32,160 nucleotides of DNA, taken from a virus. Location: the IMG/VR virus record IMGVR_UViG_3300030333_005533, positions 1 to 32,160 of that record; one strand, written 5' to 3'. The translations under genes and the position numbers were made by a program. Positions 4,383-25,392 of this stretch are shown here, piece after piece (the first letter of the stretch is position 1; every line of letters begins with the position of its first letter). The notes under the pieces were generated by a model that worked only from the letters and a program-made list of their open reading frames with translations, did no database searches and had not been told where the DNA came from.

Positions 4383-7267
4383 TGGCAGCAAAATACCCAG
4401 AGCTAGACATATACCCCAAAGAAGGCATGGACGTACGAGAGGTCCAAAAGCCAGAGTGGATTTCAAATCTTTGGCAACCTAACGGGGTTAGCTATATGGA
4501 AGTGCGCCCTGGGTTTGGCCAACGGGCTCAGTTTAGCTCACAAGCAAGTACCTCATTAGTTATCGACGGAACAACGTGGACCGTTGGTGCAAATGGGTAC
4601 GAAAAGCATCTAGGCAGTTACCTGTACAACACTTTGTACGGTCACCGGCAAATTCTTAGCGTCTTTAGCGCAAAACTTTCTTTGACCGACACTTTAGACC
4701 CAACACAGCCAGGTGTTGGATACATGGCTAGCTCGGCTAATTTGTTTTATTCTTGTCGCACGCTGCACGGGTTTAGAAACGGCATCGTGTTTAGTGTGTA
4801 TGACCTTACCACCGATGAGCACTACGAAGAAGTGTTTGCTCTGCACACAGCGCAAACCACCCGTACTAATGAGATGATTCAAACGGCGCATGGGAATTTT
4901 GAGTCGTATACCTCTGGTCGTGGTTTTGGTGTTTCAGGTACAGCAACCGGCGACAGCGGCGACTTTAGGGGTGTTCACTCGGGCGACGAAGCTTCACCTG
5001 TAAGTTTTGAGCAGATGATGGATTCAGTTGTTATTTCGAGTCCTGATTTTGGTGTTTGGCAATATTTTGGAATCGACCCAGTAGGCCCAAACAATCCACG
5101 AGTTGAAGCCGCTAATCCAGATCGTCAATTGCTGGTTTATTTGTCTAAAGCAGCGCCTGGTACATACGTTCCGCCTTGCAACTTTTTTGGTTCAGGAAAG
5201 TCAGAGTCTTCTGCGTTGGTGCCAATCGTGGGCACAAGGGGAAAAGCTGGGCAGTTTGTTTATTTTGACGACACGGAGTTTCCAAAAATCAATGCGGCTG
5301 CCATTTTAGGCAACGTTATGTGTTATGCATCAGACAGCGCAATTTTCTTTAGTGACCCCGGACACGCTGGTTCAATTCTGGGTGGAAACTTTGTTGTAGC
5401 AAATTTTGATACACCTATTGTGGCGTTAGAAGCGTGGGGTGGAAACCTTTACGCTTTTACTACCAATGAAACATGGTTGGTAACTGTTAATTACAGCACG
5501 GTTAATGTTGATGAACCGGCTAAGATCGTAGCGTCAGCAATTAGAATTTCAGAGTCAATAGGCTGCGTAGGGCCAAGGTCGGTTAGCGCTACTCCTATTG
5601 GGTTGTGCTGGGTATCGAGTTCAGGGGTTCACGCTCTAGCCTCTGAACGGCGGGTTGCAACTATTTCAGATCCGATATTTCAATATTGGAAAGACGGCTT
5701 AGAAGACCCAGTAACAAATTTTCATATTAGCGCCGTCCCTGGCGCAACTGATCAGCCATCGGCAGTTTATAGCCACTCAGGGCAGCCGACGTTGGCATTT
5801 AACAAATCTGACGATTCGCTGCTTATTGCGTACGAAGATCATATTTTAGCTTACAATACAGTAACAAAGATGTGGTGTGTTTGGCCGCTCAAATCATTAC
5901 AAAAATTAAGCTACGGCAGCACACAAAACGTACGTGAGTACAAACCTATTAACTGCTTAAATATTTTAGCAGATGCCGAGGGAACCTACATTGTTGGCGG
6001 TTTTACTGACCCCAACCAAACAGTGTCAGGCAATTACGTTGCTGGTAACTCGTTTTACGTACTCGAGTTTACAAGGGGTGGTGGATTAGACCGATCTGCT
6101 AAACCAACGGACGACAAAAGGTTGTTTGGTCAATACCAAACCCGCCCGTATATTGCTGATACTGCAACACTGGCAAACAACGACCCTAATTTTGTGGTGC
6201 ATATTAAACCTCCTACCTATTATGAATCAGATTTAACATCACCAGCGCGAGCGTATGTAGAGTTTGATATAGAGTTTACGTCGCTTTTTTATGCTGCGTT
6301 TAACAGAGCGGGCAACACAGGAGTTGTTATACCTATTGAGTATGATGGATCGTGGACTTGGGATGGGTTTTATACGGACCCTTATGTGAGCAAAACCCCA
6401 GTTCAGGGCGCTGGTGGGGCAGCAAATGTAGCAGTATCGCTTGCGCCAGCAGCAACGCCGTCTGGAAATAAAACTCTTACAATAAGCTACAACGACGCCA
6501 CCGGAACAGCAGGGCAACCCATGACTTCCTATGGGAAAACTATTAAAGTCGGCAAGATGCGGTTTTATAAAAATTTGCCACTAGCAGCTACAGATACCAA
6601 TCTTGTTTTAATTCCTACTGCAAATTGGTTGGTGTCACCAAACCAGACCGCCGTAGCCTATGACGCTGCAGGCAACCAATTACCTGCCTATGCTTGGTCA
6701 GCAGCAACCTCTTTGACCTCTGGAGCTTTTAGGCAATTTGAAAACCAAGAAGCGGGTACTGTGCAGTACGCATACAAAAGCGGCATGGTTGGTATCGACC
6801 AAGAGAAAAGCCTGCGCGCTCGTAGTATCTATGCTCTTTTGGAATCATCGGGCGAAGCAGATGTTAGCCGCTCACTCGCCCCGACTTTCGGCTTATACAA
6901 CACTATCATGGCCGGCGACCGTCGCCTTATGTCTGCACAATACTTAGATTACGTTGGCCAAGCCGGTGGTCGAGGCAAGGGTGAGGTGATGATTTCCAAG
7001 TCTGCTACTATTCGCAAACGGCTAAACGCAGGCAAGCGCACGTTCGGCGGCGGTGCTAAATACCGCAGCACAAGTGTGCAGGATGCATATTTTGTAGACT
7101 CACCAGAACGCAACATAATTGCTACTAGCGCCTCAGCAAGGGGCTCATCAATTGCAGCAATGATCTTTGGGTTTGTTAGCGACAAAGCGCAGCGCCTGCG
7201 GATTCATAAGTTGTTTATGAGTGTTGTAGCCTGGGGTGGTGGCCGTCGCCGGAAAACGCACCGATGA
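4382..7267 (+). CDS. Tail nozzle/stabilisation-like protein
   Basis: At 961 residues this is the first long tail protein after the adaptor, the place held by nozzle or tubular protein B in T7-type phages. The stretch around residues 391-425 (Ser-Ile-Gly-Cys-Val-Gly-Pro-Arg-Ser-Val, then Trp-Val-Ser-Ser-Ser-Gly-Val-His) matches the beta-propeller signature of phage stabilisation/nozzle proteins, where a conserved Gly-Pro-Arg-Ser turn precedes a Trp-x-x-x-x-Gly-Val strand. The rest is beta-rich with many aromatic residues. It is longer than T7 gp12 (about 790), with extra beta-sandwich-like sequence at about residues 600-830. The last 20 residues are very basic. The stop overlaps the next start as ATGA. 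Confidence 0.6.
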   Translation: MAAKYPELDIYPKEGMDVREVQKPEWISNLWQPNGVSYMEVRPGFGQRAQFSSQASTSLVIDGTTWTVGANGYEKHLGSYLYNTLYGHRQILSVFSAKLSLTDTLDPTQPGVGYMASSANLFYSCRTLHGFRNGIVFSVYDLTTDEHYEEVFALHTAQTTRTNEMIQTAHGNFESYTSGRGFGVSGTATGDSGDFRGVHSGDEASPVSFEQMMDSVVISSPDFGVWQYFGIDPVGPNNPRVEAANPDRQLLVYLSKAAPGTYVPPCNFFGSGKSESSALVPIVGTRGKAGQFVYFDDTEFPKINAAAILGNVMCYASDSAIFFSDPGHAGSILGGNFVVANFDTPIVALEAWGGNLYAFTTNETWLVTVNYSTVNVDEPAKIVASAIRISESIGCVGPRSVSATPIGLCWVSSSGVHALASERRVATISDPIFQYWKDGLEDPVTNFHISAVPGATDQPSAVYSHSGQPTLAFNKSDDSLLIAYEDHILAYNTVTKMWCVWPLKSLQKLSYGSTQNVREYKPINCLNILADAEGTYIVGGFTDPNQTVSGNYVAGNSFYVLEFTRGGGLDRSAKPTDDKRLFGQYQTRPYIADTATLANNDPNFVVHIKPPTYYESDLTSPARAYVEFDIEFTSLFYAAFNRAGNTGVVIPIEYDGSWTWDGFYTDPYVSKTPVQGAGGAANVAVSLAPAATPSGNKTLTISYNDATGTAGQPMTSYGKTIKVGKMRFYKNLPLAATDTNLVLIPTANWLVSPNQTAVAYDAAGNQLPAYAWSAATSLTSGAFRQFENQEAGTVQYAYKSGMVGIDQEKSLRARSIYALLESSGEADVSRSLAPTFGLYNTIMAGDRRLMSAQYLDYVGQAGGRGKGEVMISKSATIRKRLNAGKRTFGGGAKYRSTSVQDAYFVDSPERNIIATSASARGSSIAAMIFGFVSDKAQRLRIHKLFMSVVAWGGGRRRKTHR

Positions 7268-14600: not shown

Positions 14601-14660
14601 ATGAGACCAATTTTGGATAGGGAGCAGGCGCAAGATTATATGGGAGATGCCGATGAGTAG
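11649..14660 (+). CDS. Internal virion protein with SLT lytic transglycosylase domain
   Basis: 1,003 residues with a GTG start two bases after the preceding stop. Residues 5-130 are a soluble lytic transglycosylase (SLT/lysozyme-like) domain: catalytic Glu44 in Met-Leu-Gln-Glu-Ser-Ala-Gly, then Gly-Leu-Leu-Gln-Val-Met-Pro at 59-65 and Tyr-Asn-Ala-Gly at 111-114. Such domains cleave the glycan strands of peptidoglycan so that the ejection channel can cross the wall. A Pro-rich linker follows (about 340-480) with a 40-residue tandem repeat and one copy of the genome's palindrome, then a long charged coiled coil (about 630-690) and a helical C terminus containing eight consecutive alanines. Its place between small virion proteins and the giant ejection protein supports an injected ejectosome component. 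Confidence 0.8.
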   Translation: MATSSRYDNLIKKYVKEANKRPVKVDGREVKIPWQLIKAMMLQESAGKRGAESIKGALGLLQVMPRTAEEMGVDPDKLKTDAKLAIRTGVRYFKKKLKQFDGDFDFAISSYNAGATNVKRGIKKYGRNYALKFTHEDDFATHEKGHKDAGQSETQAYNRRIRAFYRDLTGKDLPGESYYNAIESLGYKYDKFAANRKGAFERLDRMTPSEIIAGIGSGEIDRTDLGYIKQIAKTRGRDDFVKTLDYALNYEPNRQQQLDKMLRPDDQIVVREPTLIDTGSGGRAGKLTDHIYNPQGSEQEQYQRLLALEKYVDSLQAEPKTMVATAPSGTVEFGEPTIRRSAASTPPGVALVSPVGLAEAVTATVPQPTPVELPSFEGLPPLNMPSGSALKQYGDFTRAPAVPQPPVVAPVELPSFKGLPPLQVPSVPALQHYSQLPPAPPAPRAPTNVAMPPMPVIDPLVKPDLLQQPVPRTAPAVRSPEPVMANKSRKRKLSPAEAAVEAARVKNTAVGTAKLPGIPAPPQLASVADQNKRTRQSVAYQLLAQEYNANLPGAPLSGEEEFLRDAAQAQLLQDLNQREIGFVEAFGGGLMGRDLVKEQQDRNQGALEKYRKSVGLGDGQSRRRMRAELASKISEVEGRAARALENEFLAKRQEYGAKLTEVEQKRKAKLDSEARAVEIDLKHADVILKQIELWHKGEQRKLDLWEIDARLLNTLLPQGLDKKSKQTIAAAGKKGGANFAPYVKELFKSLASNSDKSVDLVRKTSMAQFMQSQKQGKESIQDYQRQYFQLLRLMTGSLKGATQLAALNMGTAGYAITQQAEGLLAGTVKPEILEKALKGELEHKRDKNGNLIPVRFSLKKNGLADPANFTARVGKNNLSNGIRNLEAQLRFLNIMSRHKSLLAKSGVDAAAAAAAARRTAINMGGPESVQLVQLLDSQNRRAGLMYNEKTNTYEQVVEDKGDPKAKVRADALKDALLRRNFPRMMRPILDREQAQDYMGDADE
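12759..12998 (+). repeat. Tandem 120-bp repeat encoding a Pro-rich linker
   Basis: Two adjacent units of 120 bp (starting at 12759 and 12879) encode 40-residue repeats that begin Val-Glu-Leu-Pro-Ser-Phe-(Glu/Lys)-Gly-Leu-Pro-Pro-Leu. The protein copies are clearly alike, while DNA differences are scattered and many are synonymous, so the duplication is old and under protein-level constraint. Confidence 0.75.
13061..13082. repeat. 22-bp dispersed palindrome, copy 1, inside SLT gene
   Basis: Arm ACGTACCGCA, centre CC, then the exact reverse complement of the arm. It lies in the Pro-rich linker of the SLT protein and is read as Arg-Thr-Ala-Pro-Ala-Val-Arg (residues 472-478). It is the only copy in the + strand gene block. 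Confidence 0.9.
14373..14396 (+). repeat. (GCA)8 microsatellite encoding poly-Ala
   Basis: Eight perfect GCA codons in a row encode eight alanines near the C terminus of the SLT protein. A pure codon repeat can change length by slippage without breaking the frame, so copy number may differ between related phages. Confidence 0.9.
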
Positions 14661-17600
14661 TATTCTCGAAGCTCAGAAGGCGTTTCACGACCGCTTCGTT
14701 GAGGTACGAAAACGACGCCCTAAACGAAGCGAAGTAATAAACTACTTTAAAAAAAGCGGTGTTGATATTAATGCGCTGTCTCAGGGGGCAATACCTAGAG
14801 GGCCGTTCCAAAAATACAAATCACTACGCGACAAATTTGTTCCAACGCAAACAATAGATGAATACTTTGCAGAGCCTGTAGCCGTATCACCTGATCCGGC
14901 ACCAGACCTTCCGCCAGGACGGGAAACGATCCCGATTGGGGTGCCGACACAGCAACTGGATGAGCGACAGCAAATTGATGCGCAGTTTGCAGATGTAACC
15001 AGGCAAATCCAAGAGCGTTTTCCTGATTTAGAGCCGGTGGCAGAGCTTACAATGGACCCAGAAGTCCTTATGTCATCCATACCTGGCGTAGAACCGGAGT
15101 TAATTAATTTAGCCAAGCAAACACCTAACGGAATGACTCTTCTTAAGAGCCTTGAGGCGCTAAGGTTGGTTGGAGAAAACCAGCGTCAAGAAGCTCTGCT
15201 TGAGACACAAAGAAAACGCAAAGCGGCAACAGACTGGTTTAGAAAACGAAACAGAGCAACAAGGCCGCGGCCGCCTGGGCTTGAGGCGGCAAACAGAGAG
15301 GCTCTGCGTCTTAGGCGTAGTTTAGATGCGGCTCGTTTGCGCTACAACGAAATGGCATTAGAAACGAAAGGCATGACAACCTTGAAGCAGATGGCTGAGT
15401 CTGCCGGATCGGTTCGAGAGTATCTTTATAATCTAGCCGAAAACAACCCAGACTACCGGGCGGCTGTTGAAGAGGCCCGTCGCCCTCTATCTGGCAGGAG
15501 CGGTTCATACAGCCATAATTTACGAGGAACGTTTGGGGCGTTGCACCGCTTGCTGGCAGCGCAAAGCCGGTTTGACGCAGCGGATTTGCGAAAGAAAGAG
15601 CTAATTGCAGAGTGGGAAAATGTTCCAGTTGATGAATCGGAACTTCCGGGAGAAATTGAAGCAAAAAAAGAGCTAGCGCTACTTGATCGCCGTATCGACG
15701 AAGTGACCAACGAACTTCAGAGAATAGATACAATGGGCGGCGATGAAAGCATGGGTGAGGGCGAAAGAGCATCATCAGTTTTATGGCGCACGCTAAGTGA
15801 CTTAAAGCGGCGCAAGGCAGAAACTCAACGCCACGTGGAAAACTTTGCTCTGTATGGAATGGCAGAGCCTAATGATATGATTCCGTATGATGTAGCGGGA
15901 ATGCTTGGTGAGTGGGGCGGTACAGGGCTTGGCACTAGCGCTAGCTTGGGTGCGTTTGCGTCTGAGTTGGTTGGTTTTGCTCCAACGGCGGCTGTTGCTG
16001 AACTGCTAGATGTTATTCCAGGCGTTGATTCCACCACGGCTTACTACGAAGAGCCTGCGTACGATGAATCAGGCCAACCCATTATGGAGCCTAAGCGAGA
16101 CCCTGAAACAGGCGCTGTAATCATGGAAAAAGGGGCAGACGGCAACGAGCGGCCGGTTATGCAGCAAAAAACAATTCGCCGCGTTTTTGGTGTCGGCAAC
16201 CTATTAACTGAGGGCGCTCCTGAACACCTGCGCTCTGATACGTTTAAGGCTATGACTGACGGCTGGTTTGAGAATGTAGACGTTCAGGAAAACCAGGCCG
16301 GTGATCGCTTAGGTGAAGCAGCAGTTGAAGATGGGGCTATGTTAATTACCGGTATAGCGCACCTTGTAGGCGCGTTTTTGCCTGGCCCCAGTACACTGTT
16401 AAACACAGAAGCTAGAGGTAAAGTTTATACCCCAGAAGAGCTAAAGGAGGTTCTTCAAAGCCCGCGGGGTTGGGACAAGTTTATGTATAAACTTGAAGAA
16501 GGTTATTCTAGCCATAAAGACTTAGTGCCTAAAATGATGGGAGCTATGGTTCAGATTATAGCTAACCCAACAAAGTCATGGAACACCCAGCCTGTTACAA
16601 CAGTTTTAACGCTGCTTCCGTTTATGCAGCTACTGTCTAAAGCAGGTGTTGCTAAAGCTGGTCTGGCTGTTGCTGAGCTAGAGAGCCTAGCTGCAAAAAT
16701 GGGTGTAAACGAAAAAGCATACGGGCTGCCTCGATCTGTTATTGATAATGTTAACCGGCACGTACAAAGGGTTTTAACCAGCCCTGAAGGCGCTTTAGCT
16801 ACAAACAAGTGGTTGCAAGCACTGCTGTCTAACAAGCTTGTAACAGGCCTGCGTAGAAACAGAGACCTCCAAAAAGCTGTAGATGAAAATCCAACGCTGA
16901 AACAACGACTAAAAGAGCGAGGTGAATCGGCAAAGATTTTTAAAAAGGGCTCGGAGGTAGTGGATTATGCCGCAGAGGTTGGGCTTCTTAACCCCTGGCT
17001 TAAAAAGGGGTTGCTGTATGGAACAATGGCTAACGCCCTTGAAAATCACCATTGGGATACTGCGGACCCCTACCTTGCTTTCGCTCTTTTTGCTGGAATT
17101 CCGGGAGGTCTAGCTCTTACTCGATCGAGAGCGCCCGATGCGCAAACGGCTGCATGGAACAGAATGATGGCGGATATTGCGAGTCAGTCTGACCCATTGA
17201 TGGCTGATGTTGCGCAATCAGTTAAAACTCAAACAACTGCTGCTGGCAATAAGGTTAAAGCAGATGTAGCCAAACTTGCTGAAGAACGTCAAAGAATCTT
17301 GGATGACGGGGGAGTCTTATATGACACCAACCAAGTCCCTTACAACACATCTACAATTTATAAAATCAAAGCGAACGCGCTTGCTGAGGTTGATGCAGCT
17401 AGTGCAAAACCCGGAAGCCGTCTAAATCAAGCTGAAGAAAATTTAAACGCTGTTGAAAAAGACATAGCAGGTCGCGCTGAAGCTTGGGATCATTTGCCTG
17501 GTGAATCAATCCCTGTCGAGGTTGTTGGGCTCGGTACGTTTGATAATTTGCTTTCGCCGACCACCATTGATAATGTCGCTGCTTTTATCGCTGACGTAAA

Positions 17601-20600
17601 CAAAGCTAGAGCTTCTCGAAGGAACACCGCATACGACGGTACGAGTGCTGCCGTTATCGAAGTCGAGCGACCCGGCGGCAATATGAGCAACAATCGTCTT
17701 TATGTTCATCGGTCTGGTTTCGGTCAGGAGACGTTATACGCCGTTAATCAGAATGGTCAGGTTGTCTCTTTTATGGATTATACAGTCAATCCATTACAGC
17801 GACTTGATAACGACTTTGGTGGCCTTAACCCGTTGGTGGAAATACCAGAGGCAGCGCGCTTGGGCAGGGGCGCTTTTGAACTAACACAAATTGACCAACC
17901 AAACATCAAGGTAACTAACTACGGTGTGGCTCTTGAGGCCGGCGGTCGTCTTCAGAACACGATGCTAAGGCACCTGCAATCACGATCTGGGTCAATAGAT
18001 GGTATAGCGTTTGCCGACAATGTAGCTGATTTAGGTAAAGGGCTACAAAAAGCGGCAGAGCGCGGTGACGGAGGGGTTGCTTATGTACCGGGAGAGCTTG
18101 TTCACGCTCACGAGGTTCACCCGTTCTTAGTAGAAAGAGCGCTGTCTCAAGGTAAGGCTGTTCCTCAGAACGTTCTTCGAGCATATCAACAGCGGCTCGG
18201 TTTGACTGATGATGTGGTAAACGAAGCGCTTCCTCAATACGAGCGGTTTCCAGAGTACCAAAGAGCCATTCGTGAGGTTCTCATGGAAGAAAACCTTGTC
18301 TGGCACGAGTCTCTCAAAAGGCAGGGGGCTATGGATGCGGAAAACGCTCCGTCGCTGGGCATTGAGCGTCTTGATCACTTGCGTGTTCAACAAAGACTAA
18401 GGCATGAGCGAAAACTCAAGCAAATTGAAGATGACTACAAAGCTAAAGTCGAAGAGGAAACAGCCGCTTTAGAGGAGAAGCTTCAAACGCCGGAAGAGTT
18501 ACAACGGGCAACAGCGGCCCTTGCTCGAGCTACACGAGTGCATGAAGGTACAATTAATGCACTAAACAAATTACGTGAAAAGACACGCCAGCAATATCAT
18601 TTAGACAAACGAGCTTTAGCCGATGAGCACAGATCCGTTAGAATTGCTACAACCCAAGAAATAGGCACCCTTATTGAGCAGCGAACTAGTATTGAATCTG
18701 TGCTTAACGACGGCATGGCTCACAGCAAACGTTGGTCAAGAAAGAAAATTAAAGACTGGCAGGAGACGATCACGGTAGCCGAAGAAGCGATTGCAAACGT
18801 CAACCGAAGCTACAGTGCAAAGCTTGGGGCGCTTACCAAAAAGCGCAACCTATTTAGAAGGCACAAAGGCAGAAAAGGTGGTCTAACCAAAAAACAATAT
18901 GACCAACTAAAGCAAGAGCTTGAACTAGCAAAAGAAGCGGAGTTGCAACCGCTAAAAGACACCCTCGCAAACGCACAAGCTAAGTTTGACCGCTTTAAAG
19001 GCCAGCGTGCAAAAGAGGGAGCACGAGCGGAAGGTTACAAAAACAGAATTAGCAACAAACGAGATGAGCTAGCTGGTTTAGATCGCTCTTTTGCAGACCG
19101 GCAAGTTGCGCTTAAGGAAGCGTTTGATGATGCTATGTTGGAAATTGATTCTAAAATTGAAAACGCCAACATAAAGCTTCAAGAGCATGGAAACAAAGCG
19201 GCACAAAAAGAATCTACTATACTCGAAAACTTAGCGAAAAAACGCGATAATCAAGTAAAAAAACAGCAACAGCGCTTTGAGCGAAATGATCAATATCTGG
19301 CGGCCGCTCAAGAGGTGATGCTTAGAAGCATTGCTAACTTAACACTGCGCCAGCGAGCAGTTTTATTTGGCGATATAGCAGAGGCTCCTAGATTAACAGA
19401 GTATGTGAGCCAGGTAAATAAATACGACGAAAAGACTGGGAAGTTTAGCTCCAGCTATATGGACCCGTTACATGGCAACAGGAGATTTCCTTACGAGCTT
19501 CCAGAAGGTGTTGAACCGCCTCGCTTTGACCTTGGGGCAAGGCTTGGAGCCATAATGGAGCGTATTAGGGTTGCTCCTGACGGTGTTATCCCAAGGCACT
19601 ATAAGTTGATTATAGAAATTGCCGAGCAAATGGTTAGAGACGAGGGCGGGCTTAATTTATCCAAGCGCGAGCTAACAAAGATTTCGCGCCAGCTTGGCGA
19701 CGTTGACGTGCCCGGCGATCTCGCTGCAACTGTTCGTGAGATTATTAAGCTTGGTGGCAAAGGCGGCGTAAACAAAATACGCCAAATTTATGCTGAAACA
19801 CTAATGTCTTTTATTTCGGATAATGCTCATGCCCGGTTGCTTGGAAGTGAAGCTGCACGAGGGCGTTTTCGTTCGTGGTTGCTTGACGAAAAAGGCTACA
19901 ACTTACCTGAGAAGCTTCTCGGTAAAAGGCATGTAAAGAGCAAGGAGTTTTCAAAAGAACAGTTTGGGCAGGGCCTGGACAAGCTTATTCAGAATTTTAG
20001 CCAGGGCCGCTCTAACGGCGGTGCTTTGTTTCGCATTTTCGATCCTGTTATTGTGCGTGGGGGTAAATCATTTCGCTTATCTCAAATTTTTGATGAGTGG
20101 GCTTTGACAGAAGCCAAAGGAACCGTTCTTACAGACGCTGTGTCGTCGTCGTTAAATACGATGAGCCATATGATGGCACGTCATGTAGAAGGCCGGATGA
20201 GCGCAAGAATAGTAGCCGAAGAAGTATCCGGCATTAAAGGCTGGTTCGACGACGGAATGACCGTAGATTACGGTGAGGGTTTATACCTTTACCATAAACA
20301 GCACGGTCGCTTTCCTGCCGTACTCAAAGGCAAGGGAAGTGATTTTGATGTGTTTATCCAAAGCCCGGAGTACATGGCAGAATTATCGAAACGAATTGGT
20401 AAAGACGGTGTAGACTTAGTCAAAACAGCAGCAAAAATGTACAATGATGGTTACACAACTCTTGACAACACAATTCCGTCAATGAGCGATATTGGGGCGT
20501 CTTCTCACAGTGTTTATGAACGAGGCGCTGGCTTGGCTCGAGGCAAGCTTCCGGTAATGGTTGATGACCTTTCTTCGTTAGGCGAAACACTGGGAATTAA

Positions 20601-22434
20601 TTCTAACACGTATGTAGACACTGGCTTGCGATCAACGCTTGGCTGGCTTCACGAAACGGCGCAGTTGTTACAGTATGACACCCCTTTTATGACTGGAATG
20701 GCACAGCACATTAAGATGAACCTTACGGCGTTAAGGCCGGCAACCGCTGTTAATAACGTCATGTCTAATTATTACAACAAATTAGCTCACGACGGTGTTG
20801 ATCCTGTTACAGGGCTTATCCAGTTGTTTCAGACCATCGAGCTTGGAAAGAAAGCAAAATGGGCTCCAGACACAATAAGCCCTGATGTTTTAGCTGATTT
20901 TAACTACCTAAGAGACACGGGTTTTGATTGGGCTACGTTTATTGACGCTGAAGTTGCCGGGGCGGTTACACACGGAATTAAAAACGCCAATGCGCCAACA
21001 AACAGATCCGCACTGATGGACTTTATTCAAAACCTTACCCATCAAGGACGCATTGGGTCGTGGGATCTTCCTTTGGGTGTTGCTCCGACCGTCCGCAGTC
21101 TTACAAAGAATTTAATTGAAGCTTATCGGCAGGGCGACATTATCTTTAAAGTAGACACATCCATCCGTGAAATGGCTCGCACTCGAGAAGCTCTTGGAAA
21201 ATTAAGCCCTGGCAAAAGGGTTACTTTAAGAGATGTAAATACTGGTTATCTTTTAGGACGCGTGTTTAGGCTTAAAAATGGAAAGTTTGAGTTTGTAAAT
21301 CCGCGTGGAAAAAGAACTGTTGTTGACTCTATTGATCACCCGCTTATTAATCAGGCCAGAGCCCAATCGGCTATGGGCAAAGCAAACGCTCGTTATGTTG
21401 ACTTTGCTGACGCACAGGCACTCTTGCGAGTTGTGAAAAAATATGACTTTGCAATAGGTGGCCCGTTTAGAACGTGGATTTGGAAGACGGTAGATATTCC
21501 GGGCATTAAGAAGGGTATTGTTTACCATACCTTCTTTGATGATTTTCCAATGATGACAAACGACCCTCTGATTTTTAACGAGCTAATGCTTGATGCAATG
21601 GGTGCTTCGGCTCGTAGATCGTTAGTAGCAAACGTTTATGATCACGTCGAGGCAGACGACAAATTCAAGCGCAGGATGATTCCTCAATACCAACAAATGA
21701 CCGCCGATTTTAAAGGTGAAAAAAGCTATACAACTGTAGGCCAACGAAATTTCGCCTCCGGCCTGTGGACAATACTTCAGGCGTTTGAGCTTGAAGCTGG
21801 CTCAATGGGTAAGGCTGAACACGGTCTTCGCGGTGAGGGCAGGGCTCAACTGCAAAAAAGACTAAGACGCCAAAAGGGTGGTGCGCAGCTAGTTGTTGAA
21901 AACGTGCTGTTGGATAAGGGAATTTTACTTGGAATGCTGGATACCTACACAACCGGCAGAACCAAAACAGGTAAAGAGCTTGGTGATGAAACTGACTGGA
22001 AACAGACATTGTCTGATTACGCTTGGAATTTCGCGGACATGCTTATGCCCGGTTACCAAGTAGCCGGAATTGATTCAGCGGCAACTGTAATAAACCCTTT
22101 AAGTTATTTTAGTAGGTCTGAATTGGACAGGCGAATGGACCCGCAACAACACACAAGAACCGACGCTCACTTGTTAAAGAACCTGTTTGGTCATCGCGTT
22201 TCGCAATATGATCCTAAAACCCAATTACGAGCATGGAAACAAGCGGTTAGTGAGTTGCACAGAATAAAAGAAAATAAAGCCGAGACAATTAACGCTAATT
22301 TAGATGCTAGCTCCGAGCAAAGGCTTGCTAAATTAAGACGCTTAGATCAGTGGTTTCAAGCGGTTATTACTGAGTTTGACGAGGCCTTTATAGAAATGAA
22401 GCAATACGTTGGCGAAAGGACCGTTGATGAGTAA
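14653..22434 (+). CDS. Giant ejection/internal virion protein (2,593 residues)
   Basis: ATG 14653 is preferred to ATG 14647 because GGGAG (14642-14646) is six bases upstream of it, and because it gives an 8-nt overlap with the preceding TAG. By residue: helical basic N terminus; Pro-rich stretch at about 70-100; helical region at 110-400; weakly hydrophobic Ala/Gly helices at about 424-455, 557-580, 645-680 and 785-825 that could insert in membranes; a globular part at about 940-1100; a long Lys/Glu-rich coiled coil at 1240-1560; and a C-terminal helical part of about 900 residues with conserved-looking aromatic clusters. T7 gp16 (about 1,300 residues) and other giant podovirus virion proteins hold the same position and form the trans-envelope channel. 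I see no polymerase, protease or nuclease motif. Related C-terminal regions are often labelled as large polyvalent-protein domains; that link is not proven here. Confidence 0.65.
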   Translation: MSSILEAQKAFHDRFVEVRKRRPKRSEVINYFKKSGVDINALSQGAIPRGPFQKYKSLRDKFVPTQTIDEYFAEPVAVSPDPAPDLPPGRETIPIGVPTQQLDERQQIDAQFADVTRQIQERFPDLEPVAELTMDPEVLMSSIPGVEPELINLAKQTPNGMTLLKSLEALRLVGENQRQEALLETQRKRKAATDWFRKRNRATRPRPPGLEAANREALRLRRSLDAARLRYNEMALETKGMTTLKQMAESAGSVREYLYNLAENNPDYRAAVEEARRPLSGRSGSYSHNLRGTFGALHRLLAAQSRFDAADLRKKELIAEWENVPVDESELPGEIEAKKELALLDRRIDEVTNELQRIDTMGGDESMGEGERASSVLWRTLSDLKRRKAETQRHVENFALYGMAEPNDMIPYDVAGMLGEWGGTGLGTSASLGAFASELVGFAPTAAVAELLDVIPGVDSTTAYYEEPAYDESGQPIMEPKRDPETGAVIMEKGADGNERPVMQQKTIRRVFGVGNLLTEGAPEHLRSDTFKAMTDGWFENVDVQENQAGDRLGEAAVEDGAMLITGIAHLVGAFLPGPSTLLNTEARGKVYTPEELKEVLQSPRGWDKFMYKLEEGYSSHKDLVPKMMGAMVQIIANPTKSWNTQPVTTVLTLLPFMQLLSKAGVAKAGLAVAELESLAAKMGVNEKAYGLPRSVIDNVNRHVQRVLTSPEGALATNKWLQALLSNKLVTGLRRNRDLQKAVDENPTLKQRLKERGESAKIFKKGSEVVDYAAEVGLLNPWLKKGLLYGTMANALENHHWDTADPYLAFALFAGIPGGLALTRSRAPDAQTAAWNRMMADIASQSDPLMADVAQSVKTQTTAAGNKVKADVAKLAEERQRILDDGGVLYDTNQVPYNTSTIYKIKANALAEVDAASAKPGSRLNQAEENLNAVEKDIAGRAEAWDHLPGESIPVEVVGLGTFDNLLSPTTIDNVAAFIADVNKARASRRNTAYDGTSAAVIEVERPGGNMSNNRLYVHRSGFGQETLYAVNQNGQVVSFMDYTVNPLQRLDNDFGGLNPLVEIPEAARLGRGAFELTQIDQPNIKVTNYGVALEAGGRLQNTMLRHLQSRSGSIDGIAFADNVADLGKGLQKAAERGDGGVAYVPGELVHAHEVHPFLVERALSQGKAVPQNVLRAYQQRLGLTDDVVNEALPQYERFPEYQRAIREVLMEENLVWHESLKRQGAMDAENAPSLGIERLDHLRVQQRLRHERKLKQIEDDYKAKVEEETAALEEKLQTPEELQRATAALARATRVHEGTINALNKLREKTRQQYHLDKRALADEHRSVRIATTQEIGTLIEQRTSIESVLNDGMAHSKRWSRKKIKDWQETITVAEEAIANVNRSYSAKLGALTKKRNLFRRHKGRKGGLTKKQYDQLKQELELAKEAELQPLKDTLANAQAKFDRFKGQRAKEGARAEGYKNRISNKRDELAGLDRSFADRQVALKEAFDDAMLEIDSKIENANIKLQEHGNKAAQKESTILENLAKKRDNQVKKQQQRFERNDQYLAAAQEVMLRSIANLTLRQRAVLFGDIAEAPRLTEYVSQVNKYDEKTGKFSSSYMDPLHGNRRFPYELPEGVEPPRFDLGARLGAIMERIRVAPDGVIPRHYKLIIEIAEQMVRDEGGLNLSKRELTKISRQLGDVDVPGDLAATVREIIKLGGKGGVNKIRQIYAETLMSFISDNAHARLLGSEAARGRFRSWLLDEKGYNLPEKLLGKRHVKSKEFSKEQFGQGLDKLIQNFSQGRSNGGALFRIFDPVIVRGGKSFRLSQIFDEWALTEAKGTVLTDAVSSSLNTMSHMMARHVEGRMSARIVAEEVSGIKGWFDDGMTVDYGEGLYLYHKQHGRFPAVLKGKGSDFDVFIQSPEYMAELSKRIGKDGVDLVKTAAKMYNDGYTTLDNTIPSMSDIGASSHSVYERGAGLARGKLPVMVDDLSSLGETLGINSNTYVDTGLRSTLGWLHETAQLLQYDTPFMTGMAQHIKMNLTALRPATAVNNVMSNYYNKLAHDGVDPVTGLIQLFQTIELGKKAKWAPDTISPDVLADFNYLRDTGFDWATFIDAEVAGAVTHGIKNANAPTNRSALMDFIQNLTHQGRIGSWDLPLGVAPTVRSLTKNLIEAYRQGDIIFKVDTSIREMARTREALGKLSPGKRVTLRDVNTGYLLGRVFRLKNGKFEFVNPRGKRTVVDSIDHPLINQARAQSAMGKANARYVDFADAQALLRVVKKYDFAIGGPFRTWIWKTVDIPGIKKGIVYHTFFDDFPMMTNDPLIFNELMLDAMGASARRSLVANVYDHVEADDKFKRRMIPQYQQMTADFKGEKSYTTVGQRNFASGLWTILQAFELEAGSMGKAEHGLRGEGRAQLQKRLRRQKGGAQLVVENVLLDKGILLGMLDTYTTGRTKTGKELGDETDWKQTLSDYAWNFADMLMPGYQVAGIDSAATVINPLSYFSRSELDRRMDPQQHTRTDAHLLKNLFGHRVSQYDPKTQLRAWKQAVSELHRIKENKAETINANLDASSEQRLAKLRRLDQWFQAVITEFDEAFIEMKQYVGERTVDE

Positions 22435-23014
22435 GACAGTGTTTTTAGATCGACAGCACGCTGGCCAGATCCGCAAGCCATCTGACCAAGGTGCATACTC
22501 ACGGCTGGTGGGGCGACACGAGTCTGACATGGTGCTTGACTACTTGGCAGCAGCAGAGCGCAAGCTTAGGCAGCTAGGCATCAACGTCATCAACATCAGT
22601 GACGGTCGCTACTCGGAGCGCCACGCCAGGGTTCTCGAGTACGCCAATATGGCAGGTGGTACATCGGTCTATATTGCTGCGCACCTGAACGCCGGGAAAG
22701 GTGATTACGGCGCTGCGTTTTATGACCACCGAAGCACAATGGGTAAGAACTGCGCTAACTTTATTGCTGACGCTTTAGTGGAAGAGTGCCCTGAGCTTGA
22801 GCGTGCTTTGACTCGGCCCGCTCAGCCCAACGACTGGACAACTCATGCGTTCAATACCATCAAGGGCGTTTTTGTGGGCAAACCGTGTGGTATTTGTTTC
22901 GAGCCGTGCTTTGTAGACAACGAGGCACATATTCCGTTATTAGAGCCTAGAGGTCTTGAGCGCATTGGTGATGCTCTGGCGCTCGGCATAAACAATTGGA
23001 TGGAAAACCGATGA
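22427..23014 (+). CDS. Endolysin, N-acetylmuramoyl-L-alanine amidase (Amidase_3 type)
   Basis: 195 residues. ATG 22427 is chosen over the in-frame TTG at 22409 because AAAGGA lies six bases upstream and because it makes the 8-nt ATGAGTAA overlap with the giant gene. The Amidase_3 pattern is visible: zinc ligands His11 (Asp-Arg-Gln-His-Ala-Gly), Glu32 (Gly-Arg-His-Glu-Ser-Asp) and His86 (Ala-Ala-His-Leu-Asn-Ala), and catalytic Glu159 (Cys-Phe-Glu-Pro-Cys-Phe). The enzyme cuts the bond between MurNAc and L-Ala in peptidoglycan. No signal peptide is present, so it needs a holin to reach the wall. The holin-like gene lies 1.9 kb downstream, beyond tail genes. The DNA is visibly more GC-rich than the giant gene before it. 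Confidence 0.85.
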   Translation: MSKTVFLDRQHAGQIRKPSDQGAYSRLVGRHESDMVLDYLAAAERKLRQLGINVINISDGRYSERHARVLEYANMAGGTSVYIAAHLNAGKGDYGAAFYDHRSTMGKNCANFIADALVEECPELERALTRPAQPNDWTTHAFNTIKGVFVGKPCGICFEPCFVDNEAHIPLLEPRGLERIGDALALGINNWMENR

Positions 23015-24964: not shown

Positions 24965-25192
24965 ATGTCTGGTAAATTAGCATCACGAAAATTGTGGCTT
25001 AGCATTGCTGCAGCCGTTCTTCCTCTTATTTCAAAGGCTATTTGGCCTGACCTCGATACCACGGTTATTGTGACCAGTGTGATCGGAGCCGTGGCTGGTG
25101 TTATGGGTATCAGCATGGAAGACGTAGCGAAGCAGAAGCGCGCTGCTGTAGAGGCGGCTGCGGCCCCTTTGGACAAGCCCTCCGAGGGCTAA
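24965..25192 (+). CDS. Holin-like membrane protein
   Basis: 75 residues with AAGGAGA upstream of the ATG. A short basic N terminus (Ser-Arg-Lys-Leu-Trp) is followed by two hydrophobic segments (about 10-27 and 33-50) separated by Trp-Pro-Asp-Leu-Asp, then a charged helix and an Ala-rich end. This layout is common in small phage holins, which permeabilise the inner membrane so that the endolysin can act. The last codons contain a slippery heptamer and hairpin (25165-25190) that could direct some ribosomes into another frame. Confidence 0.6.
   Translation: MSGKLASRKLWLSIAAAVLPLISKAIWPDLDTTVIVTSVIGAVAGVMGISMEDVAKQKRAAVEAAAAPLDKPSEG
25165..25190 (+). other. Candidate -1 ribosomal frameshift site
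   Basis: In the frame of the holin-like gene, 25165-25171 reads C CCT TTG, a perfect X_XXY_YYZ heptamer in which both tRNAs can re-pair after slipping back one base. After a 4-nt spacer, 25176-25181 (AGCCCT) pairs with 25185-25190 (AGGGCT) around a CCG loop, ending next to the stop codon. Heptamer, spacer and hairpin are seen directly; frameshifting itself is inferred. Confidence 0.4.
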
Positions 25193-25392
25193 AACAGGTA
25201 GCGTTAGATGCTGGAGACGTTGGGGGTCTTGATCTCAGTCTTGCTGGGAATACTGATCGGTGGGACGCTGGCCTCAGTGCTCGCCATCGCATCGGCAAAG
25301 AACTTGATCTCACAGCTTCCTTGGAAGCAGGAGCGCAATGGGGGCAAGAAGCAGACTGGCGTGGCTTAGTGGGTGTCAAATGGCGCTGGTAA
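25171..25392 (+). CDS. Start-less beta-type ORF, probable -1 frame extension of the holin-like protein
   Basis: This frame is open from 25051 to the TAA at 25390-25392 but has no ATG or GTG, and no TTG, that could start most of it. If ribosomes slip at 25165-25171 they join 69 holin residues to 73 new ones, a 142-residue fusion. The new part looks like a protein: alternating strands (Leu-Asp-Leu-Ser-Leu-Ala-Gly; Trp-Asp-Ala-Gly-Leu-Ser-Ala-Arg; Leu-Asp-Leu-Thr-Ala-Ser-Leu) and a Lys-Trp-Arg-Trp end with a terminal aromatic, as in outer-membrane strands. Codons are rich in G at the first position. It overlaps the 53-residue membrane ORF in a different frame. One or both may be real. Confidence 0.4.
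   Translation, partial: GQALRGLKQVALDAGDVGGLDLSLAGNTDRWDAGLSARHRIGKELDLTASLEAGAQWGQEADWRGLVGVKWRW
25208..25369 (+). CDS. Small 53-residue membrane protein, possible lysis accessory
   Basis: The ATG at 25208 starts 53 codons with a weak SD (AGGT) upstream. Residues 5-31 are a strongly hydrophobic Leu/Ile/Val helix, followed by Lys-Asn-Leu and a basic C terminus (Trp-Lys-Gln-Glu-Arg-Asn-Gly-Gly-Lys-Lys). One membrane anchor with a short basic tail, just after a holin-like gene, suggests a holin partner or a minimal spanin-type component, but no lipobox is seen. It is in the same frame as the holin-like gene and overlaps a second protein-like frame over its whole length. Confidence 0.45.
   Translation: MLETLGVLISVLLGILIGGTLASVLAIASAKNLISQLPWKQERNGGKKQTGVA

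Follow-up and report, generated by a model that had tools for sequence, protein, structure and literature searches.

At the 3' end of a holin-like gene of an uncultured virus, a programmed -1 frameshift very probably operates, which would fuse the holin-like protein to a C-terminal beta domain encoded in the -1 frame. The gene lies in a stretch of 32,160 nucleotides (nt), here called the window, which represents positions 1 to 32,160 of the 42,865 bases of IMG/VR record IMGVR_UViG_3300030333_005533, and it is located towards the end of a late operon with an amidase endolysin. The best overall explanation is that a minor, frameshifted isoform of the holin carries a domain that acts at the outer membrane and may substitute for a spanin; the chances that this explanation is correct are judged to be about even.

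Slippery site and -1 frame of the holin-like gene

The holin-like open reading frame (ORF; 24965-25192, on the plus strand like all window features given below) ends with a TAA codon at 25190-25192, and its unshifted product has 75 amino acids, two hydrophobic segments and positive charges at both ends. An initial sequence-only reading of the window had pointed to the heptamer C_CCT_TTG as a slippery site, and it was found at 25165-25171, in frame with the ORF and in exact agreement with the pattern X_XXY_YYZ. Further statements of that reading about the local arrangement were also borne out. A GC-rich hairpin of 6 bp (25176-25190; arms AGCCCT and AGGGCT, loop CCG) follows the heptamer after 4 nt and ends at the first base of the stop codon, and the -1 frame remains open for 73 codons (25171-25392, including the TAA stop at 25390-25392) without a start of its own, the earliest ATG, GTG or TTG being a TTG 128 nt past the holin stop and not preceding the conserved domain. 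The predicted fusion product would be encoded by 24965-25171 in frame 0 and by 25171-25389 in the -1 frame, which gives 69 + 73 codons and the proposed length of 142 residues.

The designation of the protein as a holin could be retained only in part. It is based on the lysis genes nearby and on the hydrophobic segments, and the ORF has the characteristics of two-TM holins, i.e., small size, two transmembrane (TM) segments, a charged tail and a location near the endolysin, whereas the ORF had no match in Pfam or PHROG, to a holin family or otherwise, and thus the protein is named only holin-like. AlphaFold2 predicted three helices for it, with low confidence.

When IMG/VR was scanned with the holin ORF, 36 loci were retrieved, and profile scans added more, resulting in a first family of 47 contigs, i.e., the window and 46 related contigs; the distant relative L036, which has no extension, was left out. 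A second family was found via the tail profile, which detected the same tail behind a different holin at locus L167, and scans with L167-type holins yielded 24 usable loci. The two families have homologous tails (hhalign probability 97.5%, E 7e-12, 62 columns), and the tail profile of the second family matches the tail of the window with an E-value of 4.5e-4. Homology between the two holin families was rejected, because hhalign assigned it a probability of only 20% and it is thus not detectable. Two unrelated-looking holin families share the frameshift device.

The combination of an in-frame heptamer and a conserved -1 extension of a two-TM holin-like ORF is present in all 71 contigs (47 of the first and 24 of the second family), with the heptamer at the same place, 13-43 nt before the 0-frame stop. 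In the first family the heptamers are C_CCT_TTG/A, A_AAA_AAG, G_GGA_AAG/C and A_AAC_CCC/T, all in the 0 frame and close 5' of the stop; in the second family, where the distance to the stop is 13-31 nt, they are G_GGA_AAG, A_AAA_AAG or C_CCA_AAG. Altogether eight different heptamers occur, every one of them in frame and of the form X_XXY_YYZ, and along the first-family tree the heptamer class switches several times with retention of this pattern. The proposal of programmed frameshifting predicted that relatives would keep the slippery site and an uninterrupted -1 frame, and they do. A sequencing error that merges the two frames, which had been named as a possible objection, was rejected on the grounds that the same arrangement recurs in 71 contigs.

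The heptamer is found in 54 of 54 distinct 48-nt tails, not all of which are independent lineages, compared with about 5.7 expected from synonymous codon resampling that keeps the protein. For comparison, nine late genes of the window have 36 in-frame heptamers in 7225 codons (0.5%), and for the window ORF, with its protein kept fixed, a heptamer would fall within the last 16 codons with a synonymous null probability of 1.7%. The -1 frame of the first family is open in all members, and conservation of the encoded protein starts at about the heptamer and continues to the end, except in L018, where the contig ends inside (consensus GGLDLSL.GN.DRWDAG..ARH.....DLTA.L.AGA.WG...DWQG.VG.KWRW), while 5' of the heptamer the same frame is unconserved and frequently interrupted by stops. 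A parsimony test counted 324 non-synonymous changes in the first family versus 472 expected (z -13.4), indicating purifying selection, and in the second family, where the part of the -1 frame beyond ORF X (an ORF in the 0 frame past the holin stop, see below) was used, 29 versus 74 expected (z -10.5).

Downstream RNA structure differs between the heptamer groups. Members with A_AAC_CCY have a very stable stem of about -22 to -33 kcal/mol (z -3.3 to -6.6) with compensatory changes, members with A_AAA_AAG have no stem of note, and in most groups other than A_AAC_CCY the downstream structure is ordinary or absent. The stable stem-loop spans the stop codon in L012, L013, L034 and L083, and its compensatory changes are confined to the A_AAC_CCY group. 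A_AAA_AAG, G_GGA_AAG and C_CCA_AAG are highly shift-prone in Escherichia coli (PMC5009743), and the distribution of the stems would fit a requirement of weaker heptamers for an RNA stimulator.

Two alternative routes to the -1 product were weighed against ribosomal slippage. Separate translation of the -1 ORF, either by reinitiation past the holin stop or from a non-standard start, could make use of the ATG, GTG or TTG codons that 12 of the 47 first-family and 16 of the 24 second-family contigs have in this frame close to the holin stop; however, these codons are not conserved in place and are missing from most of the first family, including the window, whereas the heptamer is present in all. 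An independent start was thus rejected, and a separate product is regarded as very improbable. Slippage of the RNA polymerase instead of the ribosome would also result in a fusion, and A_AAA_AAG indeed holds a run of six A, but C_CCT_TTG, G_GGA_AAG and A_AAC_CCC lack a homopolymer of sufficient length and the tandem-slip pattern is common to all heptamers, which makes this route hardly credible.

The beta-domain tail

The sequence-only reading had described the C terminus of the fusion as beta-type, and structure prediction agreed with it. The conserved domain (25222-25389) ends with T/L-x-G-x-x-W-R-W, and AlphaFold2, applied to 30 aligned tails, modelled it confidently as a meander of four antiparallel strands (mean predicted local distance difference test score 85). 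Outer-membrane anchors were recovered with this predicted fold. The anchors of Hia, AtaA and YadA were among the best Foldseek matches in the PDB (E about 0.05-0.12), VIA-align ranked Hia first (Z 7.0, 69 residues, 2.7 A; range for Hia, YadA and AtaA 5.9-7.0), and several YadA-like anchors of phages were near the top of the matches among predicted viral structures. The strand faces alternate between hydrophobic and polar residues, with a contrast of 3.97 compared with 1.46 +/- 0.53 in permuted columns. All 61 distinct complete tails end with W or F and have a G five residues before, an ending that fits the known beta-signal of the beta-barrel assembly machinery (BAM). Taken together, these properties suggest that the domain probably acts at the outer membrane, a view that is held with moderate confidence.

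Sequence searches with the tails yielded little. The YadA-like anchor profile PF03895 did not match any of 30 first-family and 19 second-family tails, and a sequence search of the PDB with the beta domain returned nothing meaningful. Three second-family tails weakly matched the cyanophage family Phage_OMP (PF24653, DUF680; E 0.047). This link was rejected, because the cyanophage genes stand alone, and in P-SSM2 they adjoin pstS. Neither the holin ORF nor the beta domain had homologues in isolated phages at useful E-values or in GTDB genomes, and therefore a host could not be assigned via prophages.

Possible role in lysis

Four features can be read directly from the sequences, namely the slippery site, selection on the -1 frame, the occurrence of the tail on two holin families and the lysis neighbourhood, and the following mechanism would connect them. 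Most ribosomes would terminate and produce the short holin, while a minority would slip on X_XXY_YYZ and produce the long form, resulting in a fixed ratio. The long form would consist of the holin, about 30 linker residues and the amphipathic four-stranded beta domain with its BAM-type beta-signal. The short form would make the lesion in the inner membrane, the long form would ride in the same holin patches, and the opening of the lesion would expose its beta domain to the periplasm. The domain would then insert into the outer membrane, possibly as trimers with four strands per chain as in YadA and Hia, and would destabilise or bridge this membrane in place of a spanin. The mechanism presumes an adequate frameshift efficiency, export of the tail, its insertion into the outer membrane and a function in lysis. 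A spanin-like role of the long form in lysis is given slightly less than an even chance. A little less probable still is the more general proposal that tailed phages have a third class of outer-membrane disruption, in which phages without lipoprotein spanins would produce, by frameshifting from one gene and at a fixed ratio, a holin isoform with its own outer-membrane-inserting beta domain.

The lysis context bears on this proposal in several ways. The endolysin of the same late operon is an N-acetylmuramoyl-L-alanine amidase (22427-23014; Pfam Amidase_3, E 9e-7; PHROG 435 endolysin, E 2e-13), and in relatives an M15-like peptidase was recognised by eye. A regular-expression scan of the surrounding stretches did not detect a lipobox lipoprotein in the fusion or near any tail-bearing cassette, and in the window phage no convincing lipobox protein was found, the matches of a loose scan being antisense to larger genes or implausible. 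The tail-less relative L036, in turn, has a candidate lipoprotein of 49 amino acids (5176-5325, LTSC lipobox) in the -1 frame after the holin, at a position like that of an outer-membrane spanin (o-spanin). A survey of spanins in 2018 found no recognisable spanin in about 13% of phages and suggested that an outer-membrane protein might serve as o-spanin (PMC6139136). The locus described here is a concrete candidate for the way in which spanin-less phages open the outer membrane. The relatives of the terminase belong mostly to phages of Gram-negative hosts, and therefore an outer membrane is likely, although some of the portal relatives, which are distant, belong to phages of Gram-positive hosts.

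Several points weigh against the proposed mechanism. Both holin families have a positive N terminus and a positive stretch after the second TM segment, so that both ends are predicted to be cytoplasmic, and the tail would therefore be out of the reach of BAM until the holin opens the membrane; in addition, with only about 30 residues the linker cannot reach across an intact periplasm. The top Z-score of VIA-align is tied with unrelated methyltransferases and gasdermin, a Z of 7.0 is within the range common for chance arrangements, and no Pfam family scored above the cut-off for the tails. Lipoproteins can be missed by a regular-expression scan for lipoboxes, and spanins may lie outside the scanned stretches. 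The hairpin, which the sequence-only reading had regarded as part of the frameshift signal, is unremarkable in the window (z -1.0) and not common to most relatives; it was rejected as a conserved element and remains a possible stimulator in the window.

Two other functions of a frameshifted product were considered. The long form might be a lysis timer, whose bulky C-terminal domain would inhibit or nucleate the assembly of the short form, so that the slip rate would set the ratio, comparable to lambda S107/S105 with its two starts. Two holin isoforms in a fixed ratio, the predicted cytoplasmic location of the C terminus and the presence of ORF X as another small membrane ORF at this locus would agree with a timer, which is the best of the rival explanations. 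Nevertheless, an inhibitor tag would need neither the strand alternation of outer-membrane proteins nor a C-terminal beta-signal, yet both are kept in every lineage, and the same domain would not be required on two different holins, so that a timer appears unlikely. The beta-tailed product could also be an outer-membrane or surface protein with a role outside lysis, such as superinfection exclusion, adhesion or pore formation, and YadA-like anchors in other phages have been interpreted as adhesins (PMC10654107). This is rendered still less likely by the lack of a passenger domain, the holin-like hairpin at the N terminus and the late operon shared with the endolysin. The minor holin isoform with an outer-membrane-acting domain is thus preferred to both, and there is a substantial chance that its biology represents a new class of envelope-disrupting proteins.

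Comparison with known systems and neighbouring genes

Programmed frameshifting in phages is already known for tail assembly chaperones. In lambda G/GT some ribosomes likewise shift into the -1 frame close to the 3' terminus of a short gene and yield a minor, C-terminally extended isoform, and G_GGA_AAG is also used there, but the holin cassette differs in the gene, the operon position and the C-terminal domain, and has no link to a tape measure. Expression of the lysis gene of MS2 is also tied to a change of reading frame (PMC10885494), whereas there the frameshifted ribosomes lead to the start of a separate ORF and not to a fusion. Neither a holin frameshift nor a fusion of a holin with a beta-barrel was found in the open literature, a search that was limited to papers with an open licence, so that a prior report is possible, and holins do not come up in the available text of the PRFect and recoding papers. 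Within the literature searched, this would be the first holin gene for which programmed frameshifting is described. Gene callers miss the key domain, because it has no start codon.

The unimolecular spanin gp11 of T1 resembles the fusion in that one protein combines an inner-membrane segment with a beta-rich periplasmic part and is proposed to take down the outer membrane; in contrast, the inner-membrane part of the holin fusion is N-terminal, a lipobox is lacking and the putative outer-membrane element consists of the C-terminal beta strands. The anchors of trimeric autotransporters (YadA/Hia, PF03895) share four strands per chain and an aromatic C terminus with the tail and are its best structural matches, but the tail has no Pfam match, lacks a signal peptide and a passenger, and its Z-scores are tied with unrelated folds. 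Phage_OMP is also a small phage domain of the beta-barrel type; however, it is encoded by a pair of stand-alone genes beside pstS in P-SSM2 and by a stand-alone gene in S-CAM3, neither of which is attached to a holin. In P-SSM2, a T4-like cyanophage, the two genes (188757-189737; L221, 2258-3238) are directly 5' of pstS.

Overlapping frames in one lysis locus are also typical of the embedded spanin genes Rz/Rz1, which differ from the holin locus in that the latter has neither a lipoprotein nor a periplasmic i-spanin with a coiled coil. The overlap here is formed by ORF X (25208-25369), which encodes 53 amino acids with one hydrophobic segment in the 0 frame past the holin stop and overlaps the beta domain. 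Of 23 second-family cases, 22 have the start of ORF X 3 nt past the holin stop and the remaining one at a distance of 0, often with GGAG upstream, and a clade of 12 sequences of this family shows selection on the ORF X frame (z -3.1). The first family gave no frame-specific signal of selection, and ORF X is not supported there as a gene under selection. ORF X, seen in the window and after the holin stop in L168-L208, is likely to be a real overlapping gene and may encode a further lysis protein.

The cassette is found elsewhere in the genome in L004, L032, L033 and L067, in the first three of these between capsid-like and portal-like genes, and due to these differing positions it appears to travel as a unit. 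Outside the window, positions 38479-38829 of the record encode a protein of about 120 amino acids with one N-terminal TM segment, positive charges directly after it and a coiled-coil-like part; a similar protein is encoded in L084 and L085 about 0.9-1.7 kb past the cassette, and it is a possible further lysis protein. The late operon of the window also contains a single ORF of 2595 codons (14647-22434), which encodes a very large protein.
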